Shown: piece by piece, positions 6,064 through 34,088 of the stretch | How the letters are laid out: each line of letters begins with the position of its first letter | How positions within the stretch are numbered: the stretch's first letter is position 1 | Assembly: GCA_039980135.1 (NCBI GenBank) | Contig: JBDXCV010000013.1 | Coordinates: forward strand, 1-64,000 | Length of the DNA stretch: 64,000 nucleotides | Reading direction: 5' to 3' | Source of the DNA: Alphaproteobacteria bacterium | Lineage (GTDB): Bacteria > Pseudomonadota > Alphaproteobacteria > UBA6615 | Made by a program: the position numbers and the translations under genes | The notes under the pieces: model-generated | Told to the model about the DNA's origin: nothing | The model's input: only the letters and a program-made list of their open reading frames with translations | The model's database searches: none

Positions 6064-7837
6064 CGCGCCATCCGGCGCCGGCAATCCGCCGGTCACTGAC
6101 CTGTTTGCGGACGCGATCTCGACGATCAAGCGCGGTTTTACACCCGTTATTGTTTTCAGCTTCTTCATCAACATGCTGATGCTGACCGTGCCGCTTTACA
6201 TGCTGCAGGTCTTCGATCGGGTGCTCGGTAGCGGCAATATCGACACGCTGGTCGTCCTCACGACCATCGCGATCGTCAGTCTGCTGACATTGGCGGCCCT
6301 GGAGGGGGTGCGCACCTATGTGATGATCGGCCTGTCCAGCTGGATGAGCGGCAAGTTGGGCGGCACGATCCTCGGCAGCAGCGTCACAAGCGCCCTGAAC
6401 CACACCAATGACCCGTCGGTTCGTGGCCTGCGCGATCTCGAGACCGTGCGGACCTTCCTGACCGGGCCCGGGGTGTTCGCCATACTCGATGCCCCATGGG
6501 TGCCGATTTTCCTGGCCGTCATATTCTTCGTGCATCCGAGCCTGGGCTGGATCGCCTCGATCGGCGCGGTCATTTTGTTCGGCCTTGCGCTCGCGAACGA
6601 GATGTACACCCGCGATCCGCTGGCGCAGGCAAGCGGCCAGTCCCAACGTGCGACGCATCAGGCTGAAACCGCGGTTCGCAATGCCGACATGATCGCGGCG
6701 ATGGGCGTGTTGCCAAACCTGATCAGCCGCTGGAACCGCGACAATGGCCGGATGATCGCGTTGCAGGCGCTCGCCAGCCGGCGCGGCGGCATGATCACGG
6801 CAATCGCCAAATTCATGCGTTTTGTCATTCAGCTCGGCGTGCTGGGCACAGGTGCGTTCCTCGCAGTCCAGCAGGAAATCACGCCAGGCGCGATGATCGC
6901 ATCCTCGATCATTATGGGACGCGCGCTGGCGCCGGTCGAACAGGCAATCGGGGCCTGGAAGGGTATGGTCGCCGCCCGCGGTTCCTATGCGCGCCTGAAG
7001 GAGCTGATCGGAATCAGCAGCGAACGCGACAGCATCGAGCTGCCGCCACCACAGGGCCGACTGACGGTCGATAGCGTGGTGCTCGGCGTGCCGGGGCGCA
7101 CGGAGCCGATCATCAACGGTGTGAGCTTCTCTCTGGACCCGGGTGAAGCACTTGGCCTGATCGGGCCGTCGGCGGCCGGGAAGACCACGCTGGCGCGGCT
7201 GCTGGTCGGCAGTTGGGCCCCCACGTCAGGCCATGTCCGTCTCGACGGGGTGGAAATGACCAGCTGGAACGACGTCGACCGCCTGACTTACATGGGTTAC
7301 CTGCCGCAGGATGTGGAATTGCTGGGCGGTACGGTGAAGGAGAATATCGCCCGCATGGGTGAATCCGAGGACGCACATGTGATTGCCGCGGCCAAGCTGG
7401 CCGATGTCCACGAGATGATACTTTCACTGCCCGACGGCTACGAGACCCAGATCGGCGAGGCAGGCGGCATTCTCTCCGGCGGACAACGCCAGCGTATCGC
7501 CCTGGCGCGCGCGTTGTTCGGTGCGCCGATGCTTCTGGTCCTGGACGAGCCCAATGCAAGCCTCGACCGTGTCGGTGAGCAGGCATTGCTCGATACGATC
7601 GATGAGATGCGCCGGCGCGGCGTGACGATTGTGGTCATCGCGCACCGACCGAGCATGCTGGAGCATGTCGACAAGATTCTGGTGCTGCGGGACGGCAAGA
7701 CCGAAATCTATGGTTCGCGAGACGAGGTCATGGCCAAGCTGACCGGGCGTCCGGAACCGGCGACGGTCACACCGGAACAGGTCACCGGTCAAACCCAGGC
7801 GATCAGCGGTGAACAACCGCCGGCGAGTGAGGCATGA
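6053..7837 (+). CDS. Type I secretion system permease/ATPase (PrtD-type)
   Basis: A 594-residue inner-membrane ABC exporter half-transporter. The N-terminal half holds the hydrophobic transmembrane domain (about residues 25-300). The C-terminal nucleotide-binding domain has a Walker A motif (GPSAAGKTTL), a signature motif (LSGGQRQRIALARAL), a Walker B motif (LLVLDEP) and a switch histidine (VIAHRP). There is no C39-peptidase domain, as in the PrtD/HasD-type exporters of RTX proteins. The start is placed at the ATG at 6053; the frame extends to a TTG at 6038. Either start overlaps the end of the preceding gene. The stop overlaps the HlyD-type start by four bases. It should use ATP to export the giant upstream protein together with the adaptor and a TolC-like channel encoded elsewhere. 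Confidence 0.95.
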   Translation: MMGNAPSGAGNPPVTDLFADAISTIKRGFTPVIVFSFFINMLMLTVPLYMLQVFDRVLGSGNIDTLVVLTTIAIVSLLTLAALEGVRTYVMIGLSSWMSGKLGGTILGSSVTSALNHTNDPSVRGLRDLETVRTFLTGPGVFAILDAPWVPIFLAVIFFVHPSLGWIASIGAVILFGLALANEMYTRDPLAQASGQSQRATHQAETAVRNADMIAAMGVLPNLISRWNRDNGRMIALQALASRRGGMITAIAKFMRFVIQLGVLGTGAFLAVQQEITPGAMIASSIIMGRALAPVEQAIGAWKGMVAARGSYARLKELIGISSERDSIELPPPQGRLTVDSVVLGVPGRTEPIINGVSFSLDPGEALGLIGPSAAGKTTLARLLVGSWAPTSGHVRLDGVEMTSWNDVDRLTYMGYLPQDVELLGGTVKENIARMGESEDAHVIAAAKLADVHEMILSLPDGYETQIGEAGGILSGGQRQRIALARALFGAPMLLVLDEPNASLDRVGEQALLDTIDEMRRRGVTIVVIAHRPSMLEHVDKILVLRDGKTEIYGSRDEVMAKLTGRPEPATVTPEQVTGQTQAISGEQPPASEA

Positions 7838-9252
7838 GCGACGCATCGCAAAGGCGAGAGCCGGGCGGGGAGAGCATGCAGGTTGCGCCACAGCAGGGCG
7901 CGCAGGCGCTCGCGCAGCTGGACCTGACGGCAGGTGGCACGCCGCCGCCCCCGCCGGGCGGGGGCGGCGAACAGTTGGGAACCCGCACACCGATCCTGAT
8001 AGGTTCGGTGATCATTCTGATTTTCTTCGGTTTTTTCGGTTTCTGGGCTTTCTTAGCACCTCTCGACAGTGCGGCCATCGCCATCGGCACGGTCGGGGTC
8101 GAGGGAAATCGCCGGACGATCCAGCATCTCGAGGGCGGGATCGTGAAGGAGATCGTGGTCCGCAATGGCGACAAGGTCAAAGCGGGGCAGGTGCTGATCC
8201 GGCTCGACGAGACCCAACCGCGGGCCCAACTGCAGTTGATCACGGGGCAGCGCAATGCCGCGCTCGCCCTGGCAGCGCGCCTGCGGGCCGAACGCGACGG
8301 CAGCGAGACCGTCACGTTTCCCGAAATTCTGACGTCTCAGGGGAACGACCCGAGCGTACAGGAAACGATGCAGGGCCAGATCGGCATTTTCGAGGCCCGG
8401 CGCAACTCGATCGAGGGCCAGCGGCGAATTCTCAGGCAGCGTATCGGCCAGTTCCGCGAGGAAATCGAGGGTTTGCGCGCCCAGATCAGATCGGCCGATG
8501 AACAGCTGGTGTTGATCAACGGCGAAGTCGCCGACCTGCAGACGCTCTTCGACAAGGGCCTGACGCCGAAATCCCGACTGCTGTCTTTGCAGCGGCGGGC
8601 AGCCGAGATCGAGGGCGAACGCGGGCAGAACCGCGCGGCCATCGCACGGGCACGCCAGAGCATCGGCGAGTCTGAAATTCGCATCGTTGAACTGCGCACC
8701 GAACAGGTGAACGAGGTTGTTGCCGAGCTTCGCGAAGTCGAGAGCCAGCTGCTCGATCTGGCGGAACGTTTCCGTGCTGCGGACGACGTGCTGGACCGGG
8801 TCGAAATCGTCAGCCCGATCGACGGCTTTGCCGTTGATTTGCAGGTATTTACGAGCGGTGGTGTCATCCGGCCCGGCGACCGTCTGCTCGACGTGGTGCC
8901 CGATAGCGAGAAACTCGTGATCGAGGCCAGAGTGACCCCGACGGACATCGATATCGTGCGCGCGGGGCTCGATGCCCAAGTGCGCCTGTCGGCATTCAAC
9001 CAGCGCGTGACGCCGACGGTGGATGGCACGGTCACCTGGGTATCGGCGGACCGCCTGACGGATTCGAATTCGGGCGAGGAATATTACACCGCGCGGATCG
9101 ACCTGAAGGACCAGAATGATCCGCGCCTGAATGGCCTGACGCTGCAGCCGGGCATGCCGGCCGAAGTATTGATCCGCACCGGCGAACGCACCTTGATCCA
9201 GTATCTGGTGAGCCCGGTCGAGCAGTCGATTTCCCGCTCGCTGCGGGAATAA
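7834..9252 (+). CDS. HlyD/PrtE-type type I secretion adaptor (membrane fusion protein)
   Basis: A 472-residue periplasmic adaptor starting at an ATG that overlaps the ATPase stop (ATGA), so the two are translationally coupled. It has a cytoplasmic N-terminus with a Pro/Gly run (PPPPPGGGG near residue 35), one transmembrane segment at about 50-70, a biotinyl-lipoyl-like segment (HLEGGIVKEIVVRNGDKVKA), a long coiled-coil rich in Arg, Glu and Gln (about 145-330), and a C-terminal beta-barrel domain. It should bridge the exporter ATPase to an outer-membrane TolC-like protein, which is not in this window. The convergent TRAP permease ends only seven bases downstream. Confidence 0.95.
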   Translation: MSDASQRREPGGESMQVAPQQGAQALAQLDLTAGGTPPPPPGGGGEQLGTRTPILIGSVIILIFFGFFGFWAFLAPLDSAAIAIGTVGVEGNRRTIQHLEGGIVKEIVVRNGDKVKAGQVLIRLDETQPRAQLQLITGQRNAALALAARLRAERDGSETVTFPEILTSQGNDPSVQETMQGQIGIFEARRNSIEGQRRILRQRIGQFREEIEGLRAQIRSADEQLVLINGEVADLQTLFDKGLTPKSRLLSLQRRAAEIEGERGQNRAAIARARQSIGESEIRIVELRTEQVNEVVAELREVESQLLDLAERFRAADDVLDRVEIVSPIDGFAVDLQVFTSGGVIRPGDRLLDVVPDSEKLVIEARVTPTDIDIVRAGLDAQVRLSAFNQRVTPTVDGTVTWVSADRLTDSNSGEEYYTARIDLKDQNDPRLNGLTLQPGMPAEVLIRTGERTLIQYLVSPVEQSISRSLRE

Positions 9253-14786: not shown

Positions 14787-14871
14787 TGCGTGGACGGTCG
14801 GAGCAGCCGGATTTATGTAGGCTGTTCGCATGTTTGCTCCGTTCAACCGAATGGAAGAGAGGAATCCCCGG

Positions 14872-15768
14872 ATGTATTCAGGCCCTATCATCGACAGCCA
14901 CCATCATCTCTGGCACTGGCAGAAATACCCGTGGCTGGCCGCGCCGATGACCCCCAAGATGTACAAAGTCGACTACAGCGACCTGCGGCAGGACTATATG
15001 GTCGAGGACATGCTGGAAGATTTCGGCGAAAACAATGTCGTCAAATCGGTGCATGTGCAGGCCAATTACGATCCGGCCAAACCCGTCGAGGAGACGGCCT
15101 GGCTGCAGTCGGAGGCCAACCGAACGGGCTTTCCCCACGCCATCGTCGGCCACGCCATCATGACCGACCCGAATATCGAGGAAGTGCTGGCGGGGCATGC
15201 CGAATACGCCAACACCCGCGGCGTGCGTCATCAGCTCCATTTCTGGGAAGGCGATCCGCTGCGCTGCCGCACCGATCGGCCCGACCTGTGCCTGACCGAT
15301 GCATTCCAGAGTTCGATAGCGCTGCTCAAGAACCACGGCATGACCTTCGAACTTCAGGGCTTCTCTCACCAATTCGTGCATTTCGCCGAACTGGTGCGAA
15401 ATCACCCGGAGACAAACTTCTGTCTGGTGCATGGCGGGATGCTGACGTCCGACGACGACGCGACCGTCAATGCGTGGAAGGAAGGGCTGGAGTATCTCGT
15501 GCCCATGTCAAATGTCTGGATCAAATGTTCGGGCCTGAACTTCTTCACCGCCAAATGCGATGTCGACCATATGCGGATCATGCTGGATCACGTGCTTGAT
15601 CGTTTCGGGGCGGATCGCTGCTTCTACGGCAGCAACTTCCCGCTGGAGAAGTTGTGGGCGAAGTACGACGATCTGGTGGGCGCCTGTAAGCAGATCCTGG
15701 CGCCGCGAAGCGAGGCCGAGCAACGCGCCTTCTTCCACGACACGGCGGCGGGTTTCTTCCGGATATAG
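14872..15768 (+). CDS. Amidohydrolase family protein (COG3618-like)
   Basis: A 298-residue TIM-barrel metal-dependent hydrolase. The N-terminus IIDSHHHLWHW carries the metal-binding HxH. Later FCLVHGGM and FYGSNFPLEKLW match the metal/catalytic segments of the 2-pyrone-4,6-dicarboxylate lactonase and L-rhamnono-lactonase-like group. The ATG at 14872 is preferred over one at 14830 because AGAGGA lies about eight bases before it. It probably opens a lactone or similar cyclic ester. It stands alone between the SulP gene and the convergent CoA operon. Substrate unknown. Confidence 0.85.
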   Translation: MYSGPIIDSHHHLWHWQKYPWLAAPMTPKMYKVDYSDLRQDYMVEDMLEDFGENNVVKSVHVQANYDPAKPVEETAWLQSEANRTGFPHAIVGHAIMTDPNIEEVLAGHAEYANTRGVRHQLHFWEGDPLRCRTDRPDLCLTDAFQSSIALLKNHGMTFELQGFSHQFVHFAELVRNHPETNFCLVHGGMLTSDDDATVNAWKEGLEYLVPMSNVWIKCSGLNFFTAKCDVDHMRIMLDHVLDRFGADRCFYGSNFPLEKLWAKYDDLVGACKQILAPRSEAEQRAFFHDTAAGFFRI

Positions 15769-15870: not shown

Positions 15871-16629
15871 CTAACCCATCCACGCGCCGCCGTTCACGTC
15901 GAGCACCGCGCCTGTCGTAAAGGCCGCGCCCGGTGTGCAGAAATACCAGATGGCGTGCGCCAGTTCCTCCGGTGTGCCGAGGCGGCCGGCCGGGGTCGCC
16001 TTGCCACGCGCTTCAAGAACCTCCGCCGGGTGGCGCTCGACCCGCGGGGTCCGCACCAGTCCCGGCGCGATCGCGTTCACGGTGATGCCATGGGGCGTGA
16101 GTTCCGTCGCCAGGCGGCGGGTCAGGCCGATGATCCCGGCTTCGGTCGTGGCGTACTCAATGGCACCGCCACGCGCCGTGCGACCCGCGAGCGAGGAGAT
16201 GTTGACGATCCGGCCATACTTGTTGGCCTTCATGGCCGGCGCCAGTTCCCGGGTGATCAGAAATTTTGCGATCACGTTCCAGTCGAAACTGTGATGCATC
16301 GCATCCAGGGTGATTTCCTCGAGCGGCGGGACGTTGATGAACCCGCCCGCCGTGTTCACGAGGATATCCGCGCGGCCCCACGTGTCGAGGATTGTCTTGG
16401 CGGCGGCCTTGACCTCGCCCTCGTCGGCGCATTCGGCCTTGACGAACATGGCCTCGCCGCCGGCATGGGTGATTCGCTTGACGACGGCATGGCCTTTCTC
16501 GCGGGTGCGGCCGATCACGGCGACTTTCGCCCCCTCGGCGCCGAACCGCACGGCGGCGGCTTCGCCCATGCCTGCGGTGCCGCCGGTGACGACGGCGACC
16601 TGGCCGGTGATGTCTGTCAGTTCGTTCAT
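15871..16629 (-). CDS. SDR family oxidoreductase with Lys-to-Glu change in YxxxK
   Basis: A 252-residue Rossmann-fold protein. The start at 16629 (MNELTDITGQVAVVTGGTAG) is preferred over a longer frame. The cofactor motif TGGTAGMGE and the NTAG segment are normal, and SSLAGRTA supplies the catalytic Ser. The YxxxK motif reads YATTE (codons TAC GCC ACG ACC GAA), so the catalytic Lys is replaced by Glu. It is the last gene of the CoA operon, 19 bases after the CoA-transferase B gene. If active it would reduce or oxidise a 3-hydroxy/3-keto acyl intermediate. The missing Lys makes classical SDR chemistry doubtful. Confidence 0.88.
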   Translation of the reverse strand: MNELTDITGQVAVVTGGTAGMGEAAAVRFGAEGAKVAVIGRTREKGHAVVKRITHAGGEAMFVKAECADEGEVKAAAKTILDTWGRADILVNTAGGFINVPPLEEITLDAMHHSFDWNVIAKFLITRELAPAMKANKYGRIVNISSLAGRTARGGAIEYATTEAGIIGLTRRLATELTPHGITVNAIAPGLVRTPRVERHPAEVLEARGKATPAGRLGTPEELAHAIWYFCTPGAAFTTGAVLDVNGGAWMG

Positions 16630-16648
16630 GTGACTGCCCCCGTCCGCG

Positions 16649-17326
16649 CTAGGCGGCGATCGCGATGGTACCAACGGAATTCATGATCAGCGGCGCGTCG
16701 GTCACGGCCTGGACCTCGGCGGCGGTGAGCCCCGGTGCGACCTCGTCGAGCACCAGGCCCGCGTCGGTCACGGAAATCACCGCCATATCCGTGAATATCC
16801 GCGTCACTACGCTGCCGGCTGTGAGGGGATAGGTTCGCTCGGCGACGATCTTCGCCGCGCCGTCGCGCGCCGTGTGGGTCATCATGGCGAACACCCGCTT
16901 GGAACCCGCCGCGATGTCCATGGCACCGCCGACGCTGCCCGAGGTCTGGTTGGGCAGGCGCCAGTTGCAGAGATCGCCGTTCGCGGCCACCTGAAACGCG
17001 CCGAGAACCGCGCAATCGAGCCGCCCGCCGCGGGCAATCGCAAAACTATCGGCATGGTGTGTGAAGGCGCCGCCGGGGACCATGGTCACCAACTCCTTGC
17101 CGGCGCTGATCAGGTCCTGGTCCGCTTCGCCCTCGGCAGGGGGCGGCCCCATGCCGATCAGGCCGTTCTCGGAATGGAACATCACGTCGCGATCGCCGGG
17201 AATGAAAGCGGGGATCATGGTCGGCATGCCGATGCCGAGATTGACCAGCCAGCCGTCTTCCATGTCCTGGGCCGCGCGGGCGGCGATTTGTAGTCGGGTC
17301 AGCAGGTTTGTCTGTTCGTCGCTCAT
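16649..17326 (-). CDS. 3-oxoacid CoA-transferase, subunit B
   Basis: A 225-residue CoA-transferase subunit B. The segment FHSENGLIGMGPPPAEGEAD contains the Glu that forms the acyl/CoA-thioester intermediate, followed by ADQDLISAGKELVTMVPGGA as in succinyl-CoA:3-ketoacid and 3-oxoadipate transferases. Its ATG overlaps the stop of subunit A by four bases, consistent with the usual A2B2 enzyme. It should activate a 3-keto acid by transferring CoA from a donor such as succinyl-CoA. The exact acid is not determined. Confidence 0.93.
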   Translation of the reverse strand: MSDEQTNLLTRLQIAARAAQDMEDGWLVNLGIGMPTMIPAFIPGDRDVMFHSENGLIGMGPPPAEGEADQDLISAGKELVTMVPGGAFTHHADSFAIARGGRLDCAVLGAFQVAANGDLCNWRLPNQTSGSVGGAMDIAAGSKRVFAMMTHTARDGAAKIVAERTYPLTAGSVVTRIFTDMAVISVTDAGLVLDEVAPGLTAAEVQAVTDAPLIMNSVGTIAIAA

Positions 17327-18018
17327 GATGCGTTCCGCTCCTTGCCGATCTCGTACCAGCCGGTGACATAGTAGGTATCCACGAAAACCCCGGGTGTCAC
17401 GATGACCTCCGGGTCGAGATCGTCGATTTCGACATCTTCCTGGACTTCGACGATGGTGTGGGCGGCGGCCATGGCCATGATCGGGTTAAAGTTCCGGCCG
17501 GTCTTGCGGTAGATCAGGTTGCCGCGTGGATCGACCCTGTAGGCCTTGATCAACGCGAAATCGCCAACCAGCGGCTTTTCCAGCACGTAATCCTTGCCGT
17601 CGACATTCATGGTTTGCTTGCCGTCGGCCAGGTCGGTGCCGACGCCGGTCGGGGTCAGGAATCCGCCGAGACCGGCACCCGCCGTGCGCATGCGTTCGGC
17701 CAAAGTGCCCTGGGGTACGATCTCGAGTTCGATCTTGCCGGCGTCGTATAGTTCCTTGAAAACAAAGGACTCCTTGGCCCAGGGGAAGCTGCAGATCAGC
17801 TTTGCCACACAGCCTTCCTCGAACAACCGCGCGATGCCGCTGTGGCCGGTGCCGGCGTTGTTGGTGACGATGGTGAGGTCGCGGCGATTGAGGTCGCAGA
17901 CCCCGTCGATCAGGATTTCGGGCACGCCCGGTTGACCGAAGCCGCCGATGAGCAGGGTCGCGCCGTCGGGTACCCGGCTGACCGCATCTTCGAGGGTTTC
18001 GGCTTTCTTGTTTTTCAT
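17323..18018 (-). CDS. 3-oxoacid CoA-transferase, subunit A
   Basis: A 231-residue CoA-transferase subunit A. Family segments are DGATLLIGGFGQPGVPEILI, TIVTNNAGTGHSGIARL and GVGTDLADGKQ. It pairs with the overlapping downstream subunit B gene and begins eight bases after the DUF35 gene ends. The family includes ScoA/AtoD/PcaI types, and no feature distinguishes them here. Clustering with a thiolase-like protein suggests degradation of a branched or cyclic keto acid. Confidence 0.93.
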   Translation of the reverse strand: MKNKKAETLEDAVSRVPDGATLLIGGFGQPGVPEILIDGVCDLNRRDLTIVTNNAGTGHSGIARLFEEGCVAKLICSFPWAKESFVFKELYDAGKIELEIVPQGTLAERMRTAGAGLGGFLTPTGVGTDLADGKQTMNVDGKDYVLEKPLVGDFALIKAYRVDPRGNLIYRKTGRNFNPIMAMAAAHTIVEVQEDVEIDDLDPEVIVTPGVFVDTYYVTGWYEIGKERNAS

Positions 18019-18026
18019 GGTTCCGA

Positions 18027-18416
18027 CTAGGCAGGAGTGAAATACGGAGCAGGGCGACCGTCGGGGCCTTCCCGGAAGGTTACGGTGACCCGGTCACCCA
18101 CGGCAACATTTGCATCTCCGGCGAGCCCGCCCATCATCCGGAAACCTTCGTCCAGATCGACGAGCAGGACGGTGTAGGGCGCGTTATCTGCGAAGGCCGG
18201 CGGGGCGCGATGCACGGTCGTGCAGGCATAAATGCTACCCGCACCCTTGGACACTGCCCAGGCCGGGTCGGGTGCGCCGCATGCCGGGCAGATGGCGCGA
18301 GGATAAAAGATCGACGCCTCGCACGCCCCGCATTTGCGATAGCGGAGCTCACCTTCGGCGGCGCCTGCCCAATAGGGATCGCCGTCTGGATCGATGGGTT
18401 GGGTCTCGTTGGCCAT
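18027..18416 (-). CDS. Zn-ribbon/OB-fold DUF35 protein
   Basis: A 129-residue protein beginning at MANETQPIDPDG (18416); a longer frame would run into the upstream gene. The N-terminal rubredoxin-like zinc ribbon has CGACEASIFYPRAICPACG (four Cys), followed by an OB-fold (VHRAPPAFADNAPYTVLLVD). DUF35 proteins act as partners of thiolase-like and acyl-CoA enzymes. In steroid side-chain degradation the DUF35 partner is required for Ltp2-type retro-aldolase activity. It starts four bases after the thiolase-like gene, so the two products probably form a complex. Confidence 0.92.
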   Translation of the reverse strand: MANETQPIDPDGDPYWAGAAEGELRYRKCGACEASIFYPRAICPACGAPDPAWAVSKGAGSIYACTTVHRAPPAFADNAPYTVLLVDLDEGFRMMGGLAGDANVAVGDRVTVTFREGPDGRPAPYFTPA

Positions 18417-18420
18417 ATCG

Positions 18421-19566
18421 CTACTCCACACCCAGAATACAGGTCGAGTTCGAAGACAGGACACCGCCCGTACCGCTGATCAATGCGATCACCGCGTCGG
18501 CGACCTGGCGTGCGTCGCATTCGCCACGCAGTTGGCGGACGGCCTCGATAATCAGGAAGATGCCGTATTGCCCCGGATGGCAGTAGGAAAGCCCGCCGCC
18601 GTTGGTGTTCAGCGGAAATTCGCCGCCGGGGCCAGTCCGGCCGTTCGCCAGGAACGCGCCACCTTCGCCCGGCTTGCAGAAGCCCAGGGATTCAAGCGTC
18701 AGCAGCACCGTAATGGTGAAGCTGTCGTAGATCTCGGTGACGTCAATCTGGTCATGGGTCACGCCGGCCATGGCGAAGGCGCGTTTGCCCGATTTCGCCG
18801 CCGGGGTGACCGTGAGGTCCGGCATTTCCGAAATCTGCGCGTGGGACAGGGATTCACCCTGGCCGAGCAGCCAGACCGGCGGTTTGTCGAGAGTTCTGGC
18901 GACGTCGGGGCTAACTACCACCACCGCACCGCCGCCGTCGGTAAACAGGCAGCAATCCAGGCGGTGCAGGGGGCTGGCGATCATCCCGGAATCCAGCACC
19001 TCGTCACGGGTCAGAGGATCGCGCCGGTAGGCCTTGGGATTAAGACCGGCCCAGGCACGGGTGGAGACGGCGAGATCGGCGAGCTGTTCGGATGTCGTGC
19101 CGTACTCGGCGAAGTGCCGCGAGGCTGCCAGCGCGTAGGCACCAACCGGTGTCGGCAGGCCGTAGGGGGCCTCATACTGGTATCCGAGGTCGTTGCGGAT
19201 CTGGAAGATGTACTTGTCCTGTTTGGAGCGCTGGGTGCTGCCGTAGAGGATCACCGCGACCTTGCAGAGCCCCGCCTGGATCGCCGCGGCGGCATGGCCC
19301 AGGTGAAACTCGAAAGAGGCGCCGCCGACCGAGGTGCTGTCGGCATAGCTGGGTTGTACGCCCAAATACTCCGCGATCTGGAGCTGGGGCAGGCGGCCCC
19401 ACGCGCCCGAGACCAGAATCCCGTCCACATCGGACTTTTCCAGCCCGGCGTCGGCCAGCGCCGCGGCGAAGGCCTCGGCCTGCAGCGTGAGAACGGTGGA
19501 ATCCGGGACGACGCCGAGGCGGGATTCCGCAACCCCGGCGATGGCGCAGGCTTTCTTCAGGCTCAA
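18421..19566 (-). CDS. Thiolase-fold protein lacking the usual nucleophilic Cys (SCP-x/Ltp2-like)
   Basis: A 381-residue thiolase-superfamily protein of the SCP-x/lipid-transfer group. Around residues 77-84, where active thiolases have the acyl-accepting Cys, the sequence is STSVGGAS with no Cys. The C-terminal half keeps GGGLSYCHPGQYG (the His of the GHP-type motif) and a Cys near the end (STCILGV). It heads the operon with DUF35, CoA-transferase and SDR genes. Without the nucleophilic Cys it is unlikely to be a normal thiolase. By analogy with Ltp2 it may be a retro-aldolase acting with the DUF35 protein; that role is inference. Confidence 0.88.
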   Translation of the reverse strand: MSLKKACAIAGVAESRLGVVPDSTVLTLQAEAFAAALADAGLEKSDVDGILVSGAWGRLPQLQIAEYLGVQPSYADSTSVGGASFEFHLGHAAAAIQAGLCKVAVILYGSTQRSKQDKYIFQIRNDLGYQYEAPYGLPTPVGAYALAASRHFAEYGTTSEQLADLAVSTRAWAGLNPKAYRRDPLTRDEVLDSGMIASPLHRLDCCLFTDGGGAVVVVSPDVARTLDKPPVWLLGQGESLSHAQISEMPDLTVTPAAKSGKRAFAMAGVTHDQIDVTEIYDSFTITVLLTLESLGFCKPGEGGAFLANGRTGPGGEFPLNTNGGGLSYCHPGQYGIFLIIEAVRQLRGECDARQVADAVIALISGTGGVLSSNSTCILGVE

Positions 19567-19707: not shown

Positions 19708-20778
19708 TTAGGCGCCGGCCAGCTTCTGGATGAGCTGTTCTGCGAGCCAGTCGGTGTAAATCTCGGCCCCGGTCCGCAAGACATGCCCGGGATCGTGCCA
19801 GTGCTCTTCGGTCAGTTGTTCCGGCAGGTTTGAATCCGAATATTCGATGCATCGGATGGCGGGCGTTCGTTCGCAAATGGCGGCTTGATGGGCGCGCCGG
19901 AAGGCGTCGAGGATCGGCGGCGTGAAATACAACGCGTGCTTGATGCCGAGTTTCGGGAGAGCTGCGGCCTGTCGTTCGCGCCAGCGCAGGGTCGCGTCAA
20001 GGACATCGGCCTTGGCCACGAGCACCGGGAAATCCTTGCGGGATATGCTTGGGACTTTTTCCGCATCGAATCCGCGGCTCGGCGTATCGAATGGTTGATA
20101 AGCGTTTCGCACCCGAAGGGAATCACGGTGTTTGGCGTGGCCGGCGAACCCGATATTGAATATCCGGTAGAAAACGTGGCGGGCATAGGTTTGTAAATCG
20201 TGGATCTTGTGGCGCGCGGGGCGGTTCGACTCCATCAAATGTTCGAAGGCCAGCCAGGCATGATCACCATTCATGAAGCGAATCCCGCTGGCCTTGTTTT
20301 CCTTGTTTGCACCGAACTCAATCTTGGCTTCTGTCGAAACCTCAAACAGGACGGCAATCGGGATGCGGTCGGTCTCTCGAAGATATTCCTTGAGGAACGC
20401 ATCATGTTCGAACGCGAAGAAGCCGCCGGCCGCGATAAACCGCACATCGTAGGGGAAGCCGGCCTTTTCCAGTGCCGCTTCGAGCCGATCATCATCGATG
20501 GCGTTGGCCGAGCGACTCGAACCGATAATCAGGACGTCGAGCCGTTTCTCCGATGGGTTCCGTCGGAGTTCCGCCGTAACTTCGTCAACATGTGTGGCGC
20601 GCACGAGGCCCAGTCCCCAGGCTGTCACGTCCGTGAGGCCTACAAAGACAATGAACCCGACGACGCTCCCCGCCAGGAGCTGAAAGGATTGCGCCTTTGT
20701 CGGTAGCCGCGTGCGCAATACCTGAATCGCCACAAGAGTGATGGCGCCGAACAGCAGAATGATCTCTATATTGTTCAC
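19708..20778 (-). CDS. SGNH-like membrane-anchored protein paired with MBOAT
   Basis: A 356-residue protein with two N-terminal hydrophobic segments (about residues 1-20 and 30-55) and a periplasmic domain. IIGSSRSANAI carries the SGNH-type GxSxS nucleophile region, and HWHDPGHVLRTGAEIY near the C-terminus fits the DxxH catalytic pair. It is divergently transcribed from an MBOAT gene 71 bases away. Such MBOAT-SGNH pairs acylate extracellular polysaccharides or other surface polymers (AlgI with AlgX/AlgJ, DltB with DltD). The acceptor here is unknown. The family assignment rests on motifs only. Confidence 0.72.
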   Translation of the reverse strand: MNNIEIILLFGAITLVAIQVLRTRLPTKAQSFQLLAGSVVGFIVFVGLTDVTAWGLGLVRATHVDEVTAELRRNPSEKRLDVLIIGSSRSANAIDDDRLEAALEKAGFPYDVRFIAAGGFFAFEHDAFLKEYLRETDRIPIAVLFEVSTEAKIEFGANKENKASGIRFMNGDHAWLAFEHLMESNRPARHKIHDLQTYARHVFYRIFNIGFAGHAKHRDSLRVRNAYQPFDTPSRGFDAEKVPSISRKDFPVLVAKADVLDATLRWRERQAAALPKLGIKHALYFTPPILDAFRRAHQAAICERTPAIRCIEYSDSNLPEQLTEEHWHDPGHVLRTGAEIYTDWLAEQLIQKLAGA

Positions 20779-20849
20779 GAACTGAATCTCTTTGCGGGTG
20801 TGCCTTTAGTCTACCCGATTACACCAATGGATGGATTACGGCGCTCGCG

Positions 20850-22271
20850 ATGCTGTTTACCGATGCCAGATTCGCCGTTTTCTTCATATTCTGTTTTGCA
20901 GTCTATTGGCTGTTAGGCCGGACGGACCATCGCCACCATTTCCTGCTGGTGATGAGTTATCTGTTCTATGCCGCGTGGGATTATCGGTTCCTGACGCTGA
21001 TTATCTATGCGACGGCCGTTGCCTATGTCGCAGCCAAGCTTCTCGCAAAGTCCGAGGGCGCTCAAAGACGACGCAAGATTCTGTTGATAGCCGTCGGTCT
21101 CGAGCTCGCAAGCCTGTTCTTCTTCAAGTATTTCGGGTTCGTATTTGAGAGCCTGTCGGCGGTTATAGGGGTTCTGTTTGAAGGCCCGGATTTGCCGATC
21201 CCGGACATTCTGCTGCCGGTGGGGATCAGCTTCTTCACATTCCAGGCGATCAGCTACATCGTCGATGTCGGGCGCGGCGACACGCGTATGTCGTCCAACC
21301 CGCTCGATGTCGCGCTCTACATTGCATTCTTCCCGCAACTGGTCGCGGGCCCGATCGTCCGGTCCACGGACTTCATGCCTCAGCTTGCCGAAACCAAAAC
21401 CCTGAATTGGGACGGTTTCATTCATGGTGCGGCGGTCTTCCTGCTGGGCTTTTGCTACAAGGCCGCAATCGCCGACAATCTGGCGCTCGTGGTGGACCCG
21501 GTCTATGCGGACCCGGCGGAATGGTCACGGCTTTCGCTTTGGGTCGCGGCATTGGCTTTCCACAGCCAGATCTACTTCGATTTTGCAGGCTATTCCTGGA
21601 TGGCGATCGGGGTGGCGCTGATGCTGGGGTTCGAGCTACCACGCAACTTCAACTATCCCTACATCGCCCGGAATATCCGCGACTTCTGGCAGCGCTGGCA
21701 TATTTCGCTCTCCACATGGCTGCGCGATTATCTCTATATCCCCCTCGGTGGGAGCCGGCGTGGCGCATGGCGCTTCGTGTATGCCGCCATGGTCACCATG
21801 ATCCTCGGCGGCATCTGGCACGGTGCCTCGTGGAATTTCGTCCTGTGGGGTGTCCTCCACGGGGTCGCAATCGTGGGCTTTCGTTTCCGGAAACACATCC
21901 CTCTGCTGAGCGGAATAGCGTGGGGCTCGCCTGTTACGCGTCTGGTTCTTGGGCTCGCGATCACGCAGTTATGGGTGTTCTTTCTCTGGATCCCGTTCCG
22001 CGCCGATACATTGGCGGATACGACCTTCTTCGTTTCCAAGATGTTCGGATTTGGCATATCGGACGGCGAGCGTGGCTATCCGGTCTGGATGCTCGTCGTG
22101 GTCCTGCTGCCGGTGCTGGTCGACACGATGGCCGGCGCGAAGGTCGAAAGGCTGCGCAAGTTGCAGCCGGGGGCACCCTTCGTCTACGGCATGATCGCGG
22201 GTGCGGCGTTTGCCTTGATGCTCGTGTTACTGCCGCTTGATAGTTCGCCGTTCATCTACTTTCGGTTCTAG
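20850..22271 (+). CDS. MBOAT family O-acyltransferase (AlgI-like), copy 1
   Basis: A 473-residue multi-pass membrane protein starting MLFTDARFAVFF. Family hallmarks are LPVGISFFTFQAISYIVDV, FFPQLVAGPIVR, FWQRWHISLSTWLRDYLYIP and GGIWHGASWNFVLWGVLHG; the last holds the catalytic His. It is expected to move an acyl group, usually acetyl, from the cytoplasm to a surface polymer with an SGNH partner. Partners are the divergent SGNH-like gene on its left and possibly the one on its right, with which it is convergent. Confidence 0.93.
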   Translation: MLFTDARFAVFFIFCFAVYWLLGRTDHRHHFLLVMSYLFYAAWDYRFLTLIIYATAVAYVAAKLLAKSEGAQRRRKILLIAVGLELASLFFFKYFGFVFESLSAVIGVLFEGPDLPIPDILLPVGISFFTFQAISYIVDVGRGDTRMSSNPLDVALYIAFFPQLVAGPIVRSTDFMPQLAETKTLNWDGFIHGAAVFLLGFCYKAAIADNLALVVDPVYADPAEWSRLSLWVAALAFHSQIYFDFAGYSWMAIGVALMLGFELPRNFNYPYIARNIRDFWQRWHISLSTWLRDYLYIPLGGSRRGAWRFVYAAMVTMILGGIWHGASWNFVLWGVLHGVAIVGFRFRKHIPLLSGIAWGSPVTRLVLGLAITQLWVFFLWIPFRADTLADTTFFVSKMFGFGISDGERGYPVWMLVVVLLPVLVDTMAGAKVERLRKLQPGAPFVYGMIAGAAFALMLVLLPLDSSPFIYFRF

Positions 22272-22296
22272 GTATTTCCGTTCGGCACGGTGGTGC

Positions 22297-23256
22297 CTAA
22301 TTGCCGAGAACCAGTTCCTTCACCACATGCGCGGTGAATCGCTTGGACCCCAGATGGTTGAGGTGCGACGCATCGTAGAAGTCCTCATCCGTCCAGGTGT
22401 CATCGAACGCGTAGGATTTGTAGGTAACGCCGACCCGGGCCGCGATGGCGGCCATCGTGTCGTCGAATTCGCGGATGGCACGCGCGTCGGGGGCGTCCGA
22501 GGATTTCGCCGATTCCATGTAGGTGGCCGCGTACGGGCCATGGACCACAATCAGGCGCCCGACACGGTCGCGCAGTTCGGCAAGTGACTGCTCGACCACA
22601 TCTTTTCGCGGCCCATCAATGCGCCAGTTGGTGTACCAGCGGCCGTCCAGCCTCGGGACCGCCCGGTTGAACTTCCGTTCGACGGCCTTGTAGCGGTCCT
22701 CGGTTATGGGCTCGCCGCTCAAGTCGCGCAGCTTGTGTGGCCGTGGCCGACCGGCAGCCTGCAGGCGTATCTGGTCGGCGACATAGTCGAACAGCATCGA
22801 AGGGTTGTCGGGTAAAAACTCGATCAGAAGCCGAACCGGGTTTGTCTCGGCCATCATCGCGTATGTGTAATACCCCCCTTGTTTGAGGCCGTTGTTCAGC
22901 ATGAATGGGGACATGCTGATAATCACAGTGGCGTCGGCAAAATGGTCGGGGTAGGCGAGGACGGTCTGTAGCACTTCGGGCGGATCGCCCGCACCGACAC
23001 CTATATTACTGGCCTTGCCGACGGGCCAGCCGAGAATTTTCTCGGCCGTCGCCGGGTCGAACCCGCGCTCACTTCGGCTGTCGCCGGCGAAAATGAGTTC
23101 CGGATTATGTGCCAGACGGCCCGAGCGTTTGCCCGCATTCGGGTCGAAGAAGGCGTCTCCCAATATGCTCAGCAGCAGCACCATCACCGGAAGAAACGCG
23201 ACCAGCGGAAGCAGGACGTAAAGGGCCACCCATCGTTGGAAGATCGTAAGGCGCAT
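22297..23256 (-). CDS. SGNH-like membrane-anchored protein paired with MBOAT, copy 2
   Basis: A 319-residue protein with one N-terminal membrane anchor (about residues 10-35) and an extracytoplasmic domain. LIFAGDSRSERGFDP is the GDSxS block, and the C-terminal DASHLNHLGSKRFTAH supplies DxxH. Its ATG directly abuts the stop of the upstream MBOAT gene, with no spacing, so the two are translationally coupled. It is a distant functional analogue of the protein at 19708-20778, with little obvious sequence similarity outside the motifs. It probably completes acyl transfer to an unknown surface polymer. Confidence 0.78.
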   Translation of the reverse strand: MRLTIFQRWVALYVLLPLVAFLPVMVLLLSILGDAFFDPNAGKRSGRLAHNPELIFAGDSRSERGFDPATAEKILGWPVGKASNIGVGAGDPPEVLQTVLAYPDHFADATVIISMSPFMLNNGLKQGGYYTYAMMAETNPVRLLIEFLPDNPSMLFDYVADQIRLQAAGRPRPHKLRDLSGEPITEDRYKAVERKFNRAVPRLDGRWYTNWRIDGPRKDVVEQSLAELRDRVGRLIVVHGPYAATYMESAKSSDAPDARAIREFDDTMAAIAARVGVTYKSYAFDDTWTDEDFYDASHLNHLGSKRFTAHVVKELVLGN

Positions 23257-24735
23257 CTAGAACTCGAAGTAGAGAAATTCAGTGGGTTCGGCGATCGCGA
23301 AAATCCCCAGTACCAGCGTGGCGACAAATGCCAAGCCCCACACTAGACTGGGCCGCCACCGCAGCGCGAGAAGCGCGGGTCCCGTTGCGTATCGATTGAA
23401 GTTTAGCGCGGGTCGGTATTTCGACATCAATTCTTGCGTGTTCGGCAGACCCAGCGCGATGACGGCGGCCACCCCCAGATAACCGGCCTGTTCCCAGCCG
23501 AAGGTAAGTCCGTCCGTCGCGAGCGATGTGGCGGTGTCGACAGCGATCATCGCCGTGACAATCGTAAATGCGCCATCGGTGGTATCGGCGCGGAAAAACA
23601 CCCAGGCGAAGATCACCGCCAGGAAGCTCAAAGCCCAGCAGGCAAGTCGGCCATATGCCGTCTCCACCGACCGACCGCCACGCAGTTTCCGCCACGCGTG
23701 ATTGACGATGAGAAAAATGCCGTGCAGGCCGCCCCAAAGAATGAATCCCCAGCCCGCCCCGTGCCAGAGACCGCCGAGCAACATCGTGATGAGCAGGTTG
23801 ATGTAGCGTCGCGCCGGCCCACGCCGATTCCCGCCGAGCGGAAAATAGAGATAGTCCCGCAGAAATCGCGACAGGGTTATGTGCCAGGTCCGCCAGAATT
23901 CGATGATGCTGGTGGCTTTGTAGGGAGACGCGAAATTCAGGGGCAGGCGGACGCCGAACAAGCGGGCAAGTCCGATGGCCATGTCCGAATAACCGGAAAA
24001 ATCGAAATAGAGCTGAAAAGTGAATGACAACGCGCCGGCCCATGCGGCGAGGAAGGAGATCGGCGCACCCGCATCCGCTGCGGCGAAAACGGGGCCCCCG
24101 AAGGAGCCCAGAGGGTCCGCGATAAGCACCTTCTTGCTCAGCCCGATCACAAAGATCGTGGCCCCGATGGCAATGTTCGCCGCGCGCGGTCCGGCCAGCC
24201 GCTTGAGTTGGCCCAGCATTTCGCTGTGGTGCACGATGGGGCCGGCGATCAGCTGCGGGAAAAAGGCAACGAACAGCGCATATTCAATGAACCGGTGAGG
24301 CTGGACCTGGCCGCGGCGGCTGTCCACGAGATAGGCGATCTGCTGAAACGTGAAAAACGAGATCGCGATCGGCAGTACGATCCGGGTCCATTCAAACGCC
24401 GATCCCGTGACCTGCGAGACGTTCTCCAGAAAGAAATTTGCGTATTTGAAATAGGCGATGGTGGCGAGGTTGCCGGCGATTCCAAGGAGCAGCAGTCGGC
24501 CGCCGACGCGGGTCGATCCGGCGGCGCGGATGCGCTGCGCCAGGACATAGTTGATGACGATCGATCCGATCAAAAGGATCAGGAAATTCGCGTTCCAATG
24601 GGCATAGAAGACGAAGGATGACAGCAGCAGCCACACCAGCAACGCATCGCGCCGCGCAATTCGCGACAGCAACACTGCGCCAGCCAGCACAATCGGCAGG
24701 AACACAAAGATGAATAGGTAGGAGTTGAACAGCAT
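23257..24735 (-). CDS. MBOAT family O-acyltransferase (AlgI-like), copy 2
   Basis: A 492-residue multi-pass membrane protein starting MLFNSYLFIFVFLPIVLAG, the canonical AlgI-like N-terminus. It contains LPIAISFFTFQQIAYLVDS, FFPQLIAGPIVHHSEM, FWRTWHITLSRFLRDYLYFP and GGLWHGAGWGFILWGGLHG with the catalytic His. It forms a two-gene unit with the adjoining SGNH-like gene. With the first MBOAT it gives two complete acyltransferase modules within 5 kb. The 155-base gap upstream should hold divergent promoters for this gene and the GST-like gene, though no clear boxes were identified. Confidence 0.94.
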   Translation of the reverse strand: MLFNSYLFIFVFLPIVLAGAVLLSRIARRDALLVWLLLSSFVFYAHWNANFLILLIGSIVINYVLAQRIRAAGSTRVGGRLLLLGIAGNLATIAYFKYANFFLENVSQVTGSAFEWTRIVLPIAISFFTFQQIAYLVDSRRGQVQPHRFIEYALFVAFFPQLIAGPIVHHSEMLGQLKRLAGPRAANIAIGATIFVIGLSKKVLIADPLGSFGGPVFAAADAGAPISFLAAWAGALSFTFQLYFDFSGYSDMAIGLARLFGVRLPLNFASPYKATSIIEFWRTWHITLSRFLRDYLYFPLGGNRRGPARRYINLLITMLLGGLWHGAGWGFILWGGLHGIFLIVNHAWRKLRGGRSVETAYGRLACWALSFLAVIFAWVFFRADTTDGAFTIVTAMIAVDTATSLATDGLTFGWEQAGYLGVAAVIALGLPNTQELMSKYRPALNFNRYATGPALLALRWRPSLVWGLAFVATLVLGIFAIAEPTEFLYFEF

Positions 24736-27167: not shown

Positions 27168-30071
27168 CTAACCGATCGCACCGCAGGCATGCGTGATGCC
27201 CGTGCTGATATTCTGGATCAGCGCATAGGACTCGCGCAGCGGCTTGAAGATCGTGATGTGCTCGTCGATATAGCCTTCGCGGCTAAGCTGCGCGTAGGAG
27301 GATGGTTCCCCGTAGTCCTCTGCCGGTCGCTGCGTTGTGGGAATCGGAAAGGCGCGTTCGAGAATGACAAGCGCGTCCGGAATTCCGAGTTGCAGCAATT
27401 CGGCAACGATATCGTCGATCGTGACATTCGGTTCCCGGCTGAACCGCGGTACGCGGGTAACAAGACGGAACATGTGACCGATCAACGCCACGCGGATGGC
27501 GTGCAACAGATCCAGTGTCGCGTCGGAGTCCGGGGTTGTCGTGTTCGCCGCCCTGTCGCCCAGACCGAGTTCATCGAAGGCCGTCCGGCGCGCAATGCTG
27601 TCTTGCAGGAAAAGGCGGAGCATCCGGTTCAGCCGTTCGTGGCGCCGGTTGCGCTGGAGTGTCCCCGCCAGACTTTCCATCGGTTCGCGAAGGCTCGGGT
27701 CGCCGCTGGCCTGCGCGCGCAACAGCCATGCCACGGGGTCGAAGAGGCCGACATAGGCACGGAAGGCGTCGAGCGAACCATAGCTGTCGGCCCGGTGGGC
27801 GAGGTCCACGAGGCTCCGCAGACGAGATGACTGCTCGTAAACTGCGTGAAACCGTTCCGGATCGATATTGATCGCGCCCCCGAGGCCGCCGACGGAATTT
27901 GCGAGATAGCCGAGCTGCTGCAGGATTCCATTGTTGGGGATGGCCCGGATCTGCGAGGGATGTGCGGAATCGGCGGGCCGCTGGCCTTCATGGGCGCGTT
28001 TCGTCGGGCGGGATCCGGAGGTGGGGAGCAGATTGGTCGCGAAGGTGCCGAGGAGAGCGGCGTAGTCCGGATCCTCGACCAAACGGTCGTGGAAATTCTT
28101 CACCGCGAGGAAAAACTCGAGCGAAAAGTCTGTATCCGCATAGAAACGGTCTTCGGTCGCTTTTGCTGGCCCTCCGGTATCGAACCGCTGTTCAACCAGG
28201 CGGCTGAGTGTCGCGAAGGCGATATCCGGATTTACGAAGAAGACATATCCATCGCCGCCCTGAAAACTGAGTTCCTGCTTGGAGTTGAGGCCGGCGTTGG
28301 CGAAAACGGACCGGCTGAATGGGGTGTCGACATAGTCGAGGCGGTCGGCGAACGAGGCCGGGTGGGCGCCGCGACCGACGGACTCGCCATGGGTGTCGAA
28401 GATGACGACCTCGATATCCGTTAATCCGGCATGGGCGAGCGCGTCCGCGAGCTTGATGCGGAACCTTTCGATGGCCAGCGAGGCCGCGATCTGCCCCATG
28501 AAGCGGCCTGCGTCGGAGAATCCGGTCTGTACGCACAGGCGTTTTCGAGACTGGATATAGGTCCGATAATGTTTGTTCTCGACGAGCTCGGCGATCATGT
28601 CGTGACCGTGTTCGAGCGCGTGAGGTGTTTCAAACAGGGGGGAGATGTCGAGCCTGTCTTCGATGCCAAACAGGCGCGCGAAGTACAGCGCCGTAAGGAC
28701 TTCGAACGGTGATTCACATTCGGCGATGAGCAACCGGATGGGGGTCTCGGAATCGATATGCTTGAGGATCTGCGAGGCGATCATGAACAGTCGCCGCGCC
28801 GACGCGGATTCCGAAACGACATCGCCGAAGTTGCTGGTGACGGGCGTTGTATCGGCGATCAGTTCGTTAAGTGCGCGCATGTGTGAGCGCCGCGTGGCCG
28901 AGACATTCGGTGAATGTTCGAGACCCACATCCCGCCGGATCGCGTTGACCAGCTGGGATGCGTTCAGGCGGAGATGTACGTGTGCGGCGCCGAGACCGCT
29001 GGTGGCAACGAGCGCGCGCAGAATGGCGACCGAACCGGACAATGCGTCGGGTGCGATGACCACGGCGCGGTCGAGGGGTGTGAGTAGAGATACCGCGCTC
29101 GTCTGGCGTGTTTCGCTCCGCGACGCGATATGGCGGTTGAAGCGCTGGACCGCGTCGCCGTCCATTGCATCCGCGTTGAGGATATCCAGATCGGCGATGA
29201 TCAGATCGTGCAGTCCGCCAAGGCGTGCTGCCACCAGTTCGATCTGGGCGCGGAATTCGTCACCCGGATCGGCGGAATTCGAGATTTCGTGATTGATGGC
29301 GTTGGTCCGGTCGATCAGGAAATCCACCTGGTCGAGCTCGCTTCGAAGACGCGCGGACATGGTATCGGACCACCCGATGTCGGCGCGACCATCGAGGTCA
29401 TAGCCTACCCAACTGGCGAGGGTCGCGATCTCGGGCACGAGTTCGCGCCATTCGTCGGGATAGGCTGTGCGGGCCACGTCGAGAATAATGGCGTGAATCC
29501 GGCCGCGGGCGTGACGGGCGTTCGCGATCGCTCGCGCGGCGAAATCTTCTTCGAGGCGCAAGTCGATGGGTTCGGGCGGGCCGAACAATCCGCCGTCGGA
29601 CAGTTGCTGGACCGTGTGCTCTTGCGTGTCCCGGTTGCCGGCGAGATCGGCCAGCGCGGACATGGCCTCGCGCGACATGGAAAATGTCGGATGTGCGGTA
29701 AAGACGATGCCGAACGTGGCGCGCTCGACACGTTTTCTGAATTCGTCGAACGGGACGGTGCGACCCTCACGATCCCGGACCATCGCCTCGAACAGGGTGT
29801 GCAGGCGCGAAGTGTTTTCTTCCGGCTGTATCTCGCCGAGATAGTCACCCAGGCGATCGGCGCGAATTTGAAACGCATCGCGGGTCAGGCTATCGATCGC
29901 GGCTCCGATTTCCGAGAGCGTGATGTCGCCGCGGTCCAGCATCCGGGTGATTTCGTCGGAGATTGTCTGAACATGGTTTGCGAGAGGCTCGTCCTTTGCC
30001 GCGTGACGGTACGCTCCATAGAGGATGGAGAGTTGGGCGGAGAGATCCTGTGTCGAATGGCCGTCGTTCAT
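27168..30071 (-). CDS. Phosphoenolpyruvate carboxylase-like protein with altered catalytic motifs
   Basis: A 967-residue protein whose ATG overlaps the stop of the cystathionine lyase gene by four bases. The length and overall layout fit PEP carboxylase. FTAHPTF keeps the catalytic His (residue 127), but other signatures differ. GGDRDGN reads GYDLDGR (223-229). The GYSDSxKDxG loop reads GFSDAGRFMG (517-526), with Lys replaced by Arg. FHGRGGSIGRGG reads FDTHGESVGRGA (558-569), losing the first Arg and keeping the second. The C-terminal RNTG is absent (the protein ends CGAIG). It may have lost or changed carboxylation activity; it could be a scaffold, a regulator or an enzyme of different specificity. 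Confidence 0.82.
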   Translation of the reverse strand: MNDGHSTQDLSAQLSILYGAYRHAAKDEPLANHVQTISDEITRMLDRGDITLSEIGAAIDSLTRDAFQIRADRLGDYLGEIQPEENTSRLHTLFEAMVRDREGRTVPFDEFRKRVERATFGIVFTAHPTFSMSREAMSALADLAGNRDTQEHTVQQLSDGGLFGPPEPIDLRLEEDFAARAIANARHARGRIHAIILDVARTAYPDEWRELVPEIATLASWVGYDLDGRADIGWSDTMSARLRSELDQVDFLIDRTNAINHEISNSADPGDEFRAQIELVAARLGGLHDLIIADLDILNADAMDGDAVQRFNRHIASRSETRQTSAVSLLTPLDRAVVIAPDALSGSVAILRALVATSGLGAAHVHLRLNASQLVNAIRRDVGLEHSPNVSATRRSHMRALNELIADTTPVTSNFGDVVSESASARRLFMIASQILKHIDSETPIRLLIAECESPFEVLTALYFARLFGIEDRLDISPLFETPHALEHGHDMIAELVENKHYRTYIQSRKRLCVQTGFSDAGRFMGQIAASLAIERFRIKLADALAHAGLTDIEVVIFDTHGESVGRGAHPASFADRLDYVDTPFSRSVFANAGLNSKQELSFQGGDGYVFFVNPDIAFATLSRLVEQRFDTGGPAKATEDRFYADTDFSLEFFLAVKNFHDRLVEDPDYAALLGTFATNLLPTSGSRPTKRAHEGQRPADSAHPSQIRAIPNNGILQQLGYLANSVGGLGGAINIDPERFHAVYEQSSRLRSLVDLAHRADSYGSLDAFRAYVGLFDPVAWLLRAQASGDPSLREPMESLAGTLQRNRRHERLNRMLRLFLQDSIARRTAFDELGLGDRAANTTTPDSDATLDLLHAIRVALIGHMFRLVTRVPRFSREPNVTIDDIVAELLQLGIPDALVILERAFPIPTTQRPAEDYGEPSSYAQLSREGYIDEHITIFKPLRESYALIQNISTGITHACGAIG

Positions 30072-32106: not shown

Positions 32107-32131
32107 AAGAAACTCTCCTTATGTCGCTCTG

Positions 32132-33873: not shown

Positions 33874-34088
33874 TTCACTGCCTTTTGTGTGTGATTCCAG
33901 GGAAAGTACGCTTGGCGGGAATGTAGCTGCCGGCCCTTGACCCTGCAAGCGCCCGGGCGAGAGATTGGCCGGATGTCCGACCAACATGCGGGCTTGATTG
34001 TTGGCGCGTGCGGGCGAATAACAGGGTGGGTTCAGGCGCCGGGATCGTCCCGGCGTGGTGCGGCCGCAGATTGTCGTTGGGGGATGAG

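Follow-up and report, generated by a model that had tools for sequence, protein, structure and literature searches.

The locus raises a simple question: does a thiolase-fold protein that lacks the nucleophilic cysteine, encoded directly beside a DUF35 protein, act as the acetyl-CoA acetyltransferase of its database label, or does it break carbon–carbon bonds in another way? The window is a stretch of 64,000 nucleotides from a 3.76 Mb draft genome, whose named near relatives are Alphaproteobacteria MAGs (several marine, some labelled Rhodospirillaceae). Sequence comparison makes a thiolase-fold, CoA-dependent retro-aldolase made up of two subunits the likely answer. The label acetyl-CoA acetyltransferase is, on this reading, probably wrong, and the pathway is probably one of small-acid degradation rather than of steroid breakdown.

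Five closely spaced ORFs run on the minus strand from 19566 to 15871 and encode the thiolase-fold protein, the DUF35 protein, the two CoA-transferase subunits and an SDR (Table 1). The Pfam and NCBIfam domain calls are Thiolase_C_1, ChsH2 zinc-ribbon and OB-fold, 3-oxoacid CoA-transferase A and B, and FabG-like SDR. A preliminary description had placed the DUF35 gene four bases downstream and a CoA-transferase and an SDR in the same operon, and the layout agrees: the span 18027–19566 consists of two minus-strand genes with exactly 4 bases from stop to start, and CoA-transferase A/B and the SDR lie downstream on the same strand. The DUF35 gene is 8 bases from that of CoA-transferase A, whose end is overlapped by 4 bases by the start of CoA-transferase B, and the SDR begins 13 bases after CoA-transferase B with the ATG at 16635 taken as its start. 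The zinc ligands of the DUF35 protein form a canonical CxxC-x10-CxxC pattern and both Pfam ChsH2 domains are matched, while the FHSENGLIG segment of CoA-transferase B aligns with solved 3-oxoacid CoA-transferases. The amidohydrolase at 14830–15765 was excluded from the operon because it lies on the opposite strand.

Table 1 Coordinates of the operon and of the active-site codons within the window
Feature	Position	Strand	Description
Thiolase-fold, Cys-less subunit	18421..19566	-	381 aa, TTG start; PRK06158 subfamily, Thiolase_C_1; predicted retro-aldolase
Gly82 codon	19321..19323	-	position of thiolase nucleophilic Cys
Tyr280 codon (Y-D-S-F)	18727..18729	-	aligned with TcLtp2 Tyr294 and CtSal Tyr302; predicted catalytic base
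Ser282 codon	18721..18723	-	third residue of YDxF; His in Ltp2, Cys in Sal
His330 codon	18577..18579	-	aligned with thiolase His, TcLtp2 Tyr344 and CtSal Gln352; predicted proton donor
DUF35 partner	18027..18416	-	ATG start; ChsH2-type zinc ribbon and OB fold, C4 zinc ligands
Class I CoA-transferase subunit A	17323..18018	-	3-oxoacid type, TIGR02429
Class I CoA-transferase subunit B	16649..17326	-	TIGR02428
SDR-fold protein, FabG-like	15871..16635	-	YATTE instead of catalytic YxxxK

The identity of the active-site residues provides the starting point. The Cys segment had been described as replaced and the C-terminal His motif as kept, and both observations stand. Gly82, in the segment DSTSVGGASFEF, aligns in phmmer alignments with the nucleophilic Cys of the Pyrococcus thiolase 7YVY and with Gly89 of CtSal, so that Gly occupies the position at which thiolases carry their Cys85, Cys88 or Cys89. 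The C-terminal motif NTNGGGLSYCHPG contains His330, which aligns with the GHP His of thiolases and preserves the catalytic His of that type. The Tyr of Y280-D-S-F, absent from the preliminary description, is the more telling residue: in the phmmer alignments it coincides with the Tyr of both TcLtp2 and CtSal. In the same alignments Ser282 falls on TcLtp2 His296 and CtSal Cys304, and His330 on TcLtp2 Tyr344 and CtSal Gln352. Residue numbers for the two aldolases come from counting along the chains as printed, which for the tagged CtSal chain required an offset of 24, and agree with PMC12329534, from which the catalytic roles of these residues are taken. Gly81, Gly82, Tyr280, Asp281, Phe283 and His330 are invariant in an alignment of 31 sequences with 42–97% identity. 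Cys329, next to His330, is replaced by Thr, Ala, Val, Asn and others in the subfamily.

Which residue would serve as the acid? In the subclade of the window protein the YDxF motif has Ser or Ala at its third position, and Asn in a single row, and this variation makes Ser282 an unlikely catalyst; position 330 is always His, and the invariance of His330 makes it the more likely proton donor. A point against the reading is that CtSal C304S is inactive (PMC12329534), so that an enzyme with Ser at the third position would have to use another acid. Every Gly/Tyr row of a 119-row table has either Cys at the third position or His or Tyr at 330, and the rows that lack His and Tyr at 330 (CtSal and three YDCF rows) all carry Cys at the third position; these rows are not independent of one another. 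The simplest reading of this pattern is that the proton donor is drawn from one of the two positions, here His330. The combination of YD[S/A/N]F with an invariant His at the position of Ltp2 Tyr344 suggests a Tyr-base/His-acid variant.

Nucleophile and motif vary together. Among 119 aligned relatives, four PDB chains included, Cys occurs with HDxF-type motifs (HDCF, HDAF, HDAM) in 16 and Gly with a Tyr-led motif in 102, mostly YDxF, with YDCY in CtSal and YENF in one row; the remaining row (HDAT) is gapped at the nucleophile and could not be scored. No crossover between the two sets was found among the scored rows, and the Gly/Tyr combination recurs in every one of 16 additional sequences, namely IpfD and relatives carried on plasmids. 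In a maximum-likelihood tree of 44 rows the Gly/Tyr and Cys/His sets separate with support of 100/100, and in a second tree with IpfD added the support is 100/99. TcLtp2, CtSal and IpfD all fall on the Gly/Tyr side together with the window protein, which sits in a clade with PRK06158 members and the solved protein 4U4E (22 rows, 100/99; in the second tree 20 rows, 100/100). The position of CtSal inside the Gly/Tyr clade is weakly resolved (81/77) and the branch of IpfD in the second tree is long. Taken broadly, the window protein carries the marks of a thiolase-fold retro-aldolase: Gly in place of the nucleophile, the Tyr of YDxF and a clade shared with characterized aldolases. Loss of Cys by itself does not imply the Tyr motif, since a different kind of Cys-less protein with a solved structure, ST0096 (4YZO), retains HD while carrying Ser where the Cys would be.

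The window protein scores 512 bits over residues 4–380 with the NCBIfam model PRK06158 (NF004811), above the curated cut-off of 421. Its AlphaFold model has a pLDDT of 87.6 and a pTM of 0.91, with the loop of His330 as the least confident part (pLDDT under 50 at 329–331). The closest folds are 9MYR (Z 52.1), 4U4E (51.4), 6OK1 (50.0), and 6ESQ and TbSLP (49.4); classical thiolases rank far lower, at Z of about 35. Since 6ESQ scores nearly as high, aldolases can be told apart from DUF35 thiolases with Cys by their residues but not by fold alone.

Conservation of the neighborhood points in the same direction. DUF35 adjoins the thiolase-fold gene in 50 of 50 loci, and dN/dS of the thiolase-fold gene between relatives is 0.02–0.08, a sign of strong purifying selection. 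Together with the invariance across the 31 sequences, these values argue that the active-site replacement is not due to chance. In the host family (15 loci) DUF35 and CoA-transferase A follow the thiolase-fold gene in all 15, CoA-transferase B comes next in all 13 whose contig reaches that far, and the SDR follows in 8 of 15. The relative in Nitratireductor aestuarii (69% identity) is preceded by a class I CoA-transferase pair, from which a regulator gene separates it. A class III CoA-transferase lies beside the pair in Acidovorax, Hydrogenophaga and Achromobacter, so that unrelated CoA-transferases recur. Of 13 annotated loci of plasmid-borne relatives (a stretch of about 12–15 kb each), all contain a CoA-activating enzyme, 11 have a hydratase of MaoC or ECH type and one has an annotated 3-hydroxyacyl-CoA dehydrogenase, among genes that are otherwise catabolic and uptake-type. 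This is suggestive of the setting expected if a beta-hydroxyacyl-CoA is cleaved directly; the count of one in 13 is itself only suggestive, as SDRs in several of these loci could act as 3-hydroxyacyl-CoA dehydrogenases. In the plasmid tables of Rhodococcus and Streptomyces we found no DUF35 directly beside the thiolase-fold gene, but a DUF2889 protein or an acyl-CoA dehydrogenase, and an adenylate-forming enzyme; the DUF35 pairing may thus not be universal. The PRK06158 family spreads over alpha- and betaproteobacteria, Rhodococcus, Streptomyces, Dehalococcoidia and haloarchaea.

The proposal is built on residue identities and their co-variation, the clade, the fold match and the conservation of the operon. 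From these we infer the reaction, the roles of Tyr280 and His330, the formation of a complex and a non-steroid substrate. The thiolase-fold and DUF35 subunits would probably assemble as an alpha-beta-beta-alpha heterotetramer, as do Sal-Shy(DUF35) and Ltp2-ChsH2(DUF35). The CoA-transferase would pass CoA from an acyl-CoA donor to a small beta-hydroxy acid. Tyr280 would then abstract the proton of the beta-hydroxyl group, with the beta-oxygen bound by the backbone amide of Gly82, and cleavage of the alpha–beta bond would release an aldehyde or ketone and the enolate of an acyl-CoA. His330, at the position where in thiolases a His activates the Cys, would protonate this enolate to give acetyl- or propionyl-CoA. 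The role assigned to Gly82 follows that proposed for the backbone amide of Gly89 in CtSal (PMC12329534).

A different Cys-independent reaction of a CoA ester, be it decarboxylation, retro-Claisen hydrolysis or a synthetic aldol or Claisen condensation, is unlikely. Cys-less thiolase-fold proteins can have weak activities, as in the slow decarboxylation of malonyl-CoA by TbSLP, and aldolases can run in either direction; however, CtSal does not decarboxylate malonyl-CoA (PMC12329534), the Tyr base is common to the characterized retro-aldolases and the neighboring genes are of catabolic and uptake type.

Could the protein be a true thiolase after all, as annotated, with Cys329 or Cys206 as nucleophile? 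The NCBIfam name of PRK06158 is indeed "acetyl-CoA acetyltransferase", His330 is kept, Cys206 is invariant in the 31-sequence alignment, and a CoA-transferase of 3-oxoacid type is the usual partner of a thiolase. Yet the nucleophilic Cys that the name implies is absent, all scored rows of the subfamily have Gly in its place, and HDxF has changed to YDxF alongside. The preliminary description had named an alternative Cys aligned in the active site as evidence against its reading, and neither candidate provides one: Cys329 is unconserved, and Cys206 lies outside the motif loops in an LDCC segment that the aldolase TcLtp2 shares. Rolfe et al. argue for CtSal that Gly at this position excludes thiolysis (PMC12329534). 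We therefore consider a thiolase quite improbable. The Gly/Tyr signature, the bracketing of the protein among characterized retro-aldolases in the trees, the fold ranking and the neighboring hydratases together favor a retro-aldolase, and the choice made in the preliminary description is well supported by inference.

Its analogy with steroid side-chain catabolism, in contrast, is not supported. The window protein is 34–37% identical to CtSal and TcLtp2, which are its best characterized fold matches, and has a DUF35 partner as they do. But the Ltp2 model PRK07855 gives 244.7 bits against a curated cut-off of 469, which the control TcLtp2 passes at 697 bits (CtSal passes none of the NCBIfam models listed). 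The YDHF motif and acid Tyr344 of Ltp2 are replaced by YDSF and His330, and the same residues and a C4 DUF35 partner stand where Sal, as defined from PMC12329534, has YDCY, Cys304, Gln352 and a C3H1 zinc-finger partner. A pass with PRK06158 and a failure with PRK07855 suggest a protein that would work like Ltp2 or Sal without membership in either. A genome search for KshA, a single marker and thus no proof that a steroid pathway is absent, gave a marginal match only (23–24 bits at a cut-off of 23.3), and no steroid genes were recognized around the locus or around its relatives. A steroid side-chain aldolase of Ltp2 or Sal type is accordingly very unlikely. Equally remote is a purely structural or regulatory role, in which a protein without catalysis persists for the sake of the complex: the loss of the thiolase nucleophile would fit, but Tyr280, Asp281, Phe283 and His330 are invariant in the 31 sequences under the low dN/dS given above.

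With a retro-aldolase as the preferred reading, the pathway around it is less complete than had been claimed. The preliminary description spoke of a complete, undefined catabolic route, which overstates the content of the operon: it reveals neither a substrate nor an evident hydratase, its CoA-transferase is conserved but of the ordinary 3-oxoacid type, and its SDR has YxxxE for YxxxK. Glu replaces the catalytic Lys of this SDR (YATTE, YSTTE or YSTNE) in the six relatives in which the motif was read, while our script did not pick up the pattern in two others; with this conservation, the SDR may not be a standard dehydrogenase. Several candidate pathway parts were set aside. A FrsA-like hydrolase and an LLM monooxygenase lie upstream in four other loci, but homologues of the LLM protein occur in the source genome outside the operon. 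Homologues of cystathionine beta-lyase, 3-mercaptopyruvate sulfurtransferase and cysteine synthase (30068–34173, minus strand) are conserved upstream of the operon in the host family; these CysK-MPST-MetC genes are ordinary amino-acid genes, and we drew no functional evidence from them for a sulfur-compound pathway. A TAXI-TRAP transporter, found at 9.2–12.5 kb in the window and beside the pair in Roseovarius, was missing from the stretches inspected around the operon in other genomes of the host family, for which reason we do not claim its linkage.

Other features of these regions deserve mention in their own right. A block of two MBOAT-type O-acyltransferase genes and two SGNH-like genes (19711–24735) separates the operon from MetC; together with a GST gene, it looks inserted, as MetC is directly upstream of the thiolase-fold gene in several relatives. 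At 2–9252, a 1669 aa ORF that starts at the edge of the window encodes a very long repeat protein; genes for an ABC transporter and a HlyD-like protein come next, and the set resembles a type I system that secretes a large surface protein. Two related loci (L066, 12143–13740; L068, 10149–11761) have two additional genes inserted after CoA-transferase B and ahead of the SDR, one for a second CoA-transferase A paralogue and one for a YHYH-domain protein. The thiolase-fold gene of one MAG (L074, 9717–10793) is broken across several frames by a frameshift, decay or an assembly error.

A wider proposal can be offered tentatively. PRK06158 might be a large, misannotated class of non-steroid CoA retro-aldolases with a third catalytic pair, a Tyr base and the inherited thiolase His as acid; in the host family the class I CoA-transferase might add a self-priming loop, in which acetyl-CoA from one cleavage donates CoA to the next hydroxy acid. 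If the retro-aldolase reading is true, the common label "acetyl-CoA acetyltransferase" beside an OB-fold protein is wrong for the PRK06158 family, and catabolic models built on it miss C–C cleavage steps. The range of thiolase-fold aldolases, so far steroids and ibuprofen, would then come to include candidate small-acid pathways. The residues also provide a simple rule for reading sequences: Gly pairs with Tyr and Cys with His, and the acid position adds a further mark.

Comparison with known systems places the pair. The solved protein closest to it, the putative thiolase 4U4E of Sphaerobacter thermophilus (56–58% identity), shares its subclade and the Gly, YDSF and THPG motifs. We found no function paper for 4U4E and no activity data for the PRK06158 subfamily in the open-licence PMC literature, and no DUF35 chain of the 4U4E entry among the DUF35 search matches. 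Thiolase-fold and DUF35 subunits also occur together in the archaeal acetoacetyl-CoA thiolase (6ESQ), in the benzoylsuccinyl-CoA thiolase BbsAB (7PXP) and in the acylase PhlABC (5M3K), but 6ESQ and PhlC keep the nucleophilic Cys (PMC6392133). A deoxyribonate cluster with a thiolase and a CoA-transferase was considered as well; DUF35 is absent from the text of that paper (PMC6365646). Retro-aldol evidence exists for CtSal, including its mutants, and for TcLtp2 (PMC12329534). Sal-Shy(DUF35), the bile acid aldolase of Comamonas testosteroni (9MYR), has the equivalents of Gly82 and Tyr280 and a DUF35 partner, but it uses Cys304 of YDCY as acid, with Gln352 at the place of His330, acts on a steroid, and has a C3H1 zinc finger and a MaoC domain fused to DUF35. 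Ltp2-ChsH2(DUF35), the steroid aldolase of Thermomonospora curvata (6OK1), shares Gly, Tyr, the LDCC segment and a C4 DUF35, and differs in its YDHF motif with Tyr344 as acid and in its NCBIfam subfamily. IpfDE of Rhizorhabdus wittichii MPO218, again a thiolase-fold and OB-fold pair, extends this chemistry beyond steroids: it is described as a retro-aldolase that splits the dihydrodiol of ibuprofen-CoA into 4-isobutylcatechol and propionyl-CoA, and ibuprofen does not support growth of an ipfD insertion mutant (PMC9195938). To locate IpfD on pIBU218 we combined its accession, given in PMC11347016, with that of the plasmid, given in PMC9195938; the plasmid carries a second, separate lipid-transfer-protein/OB-fold pair with Ltp2-type motifs (YDHF, Tyr; L210, 1539–3103), which adjoins a CaiB-type CoA-transferase and an enoyl-CoA hydratase. 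Like the window protein, IpfD has Gly at the nucleophile position and a Tyr-led motif (YDAF); it is distant, has Ala third in the motif and Tyr at the position of His330, and acts on an aromatic substrate. Set beside these enzymes, the window protein is an uncharacterized, widespread variant of a known enzyme type.
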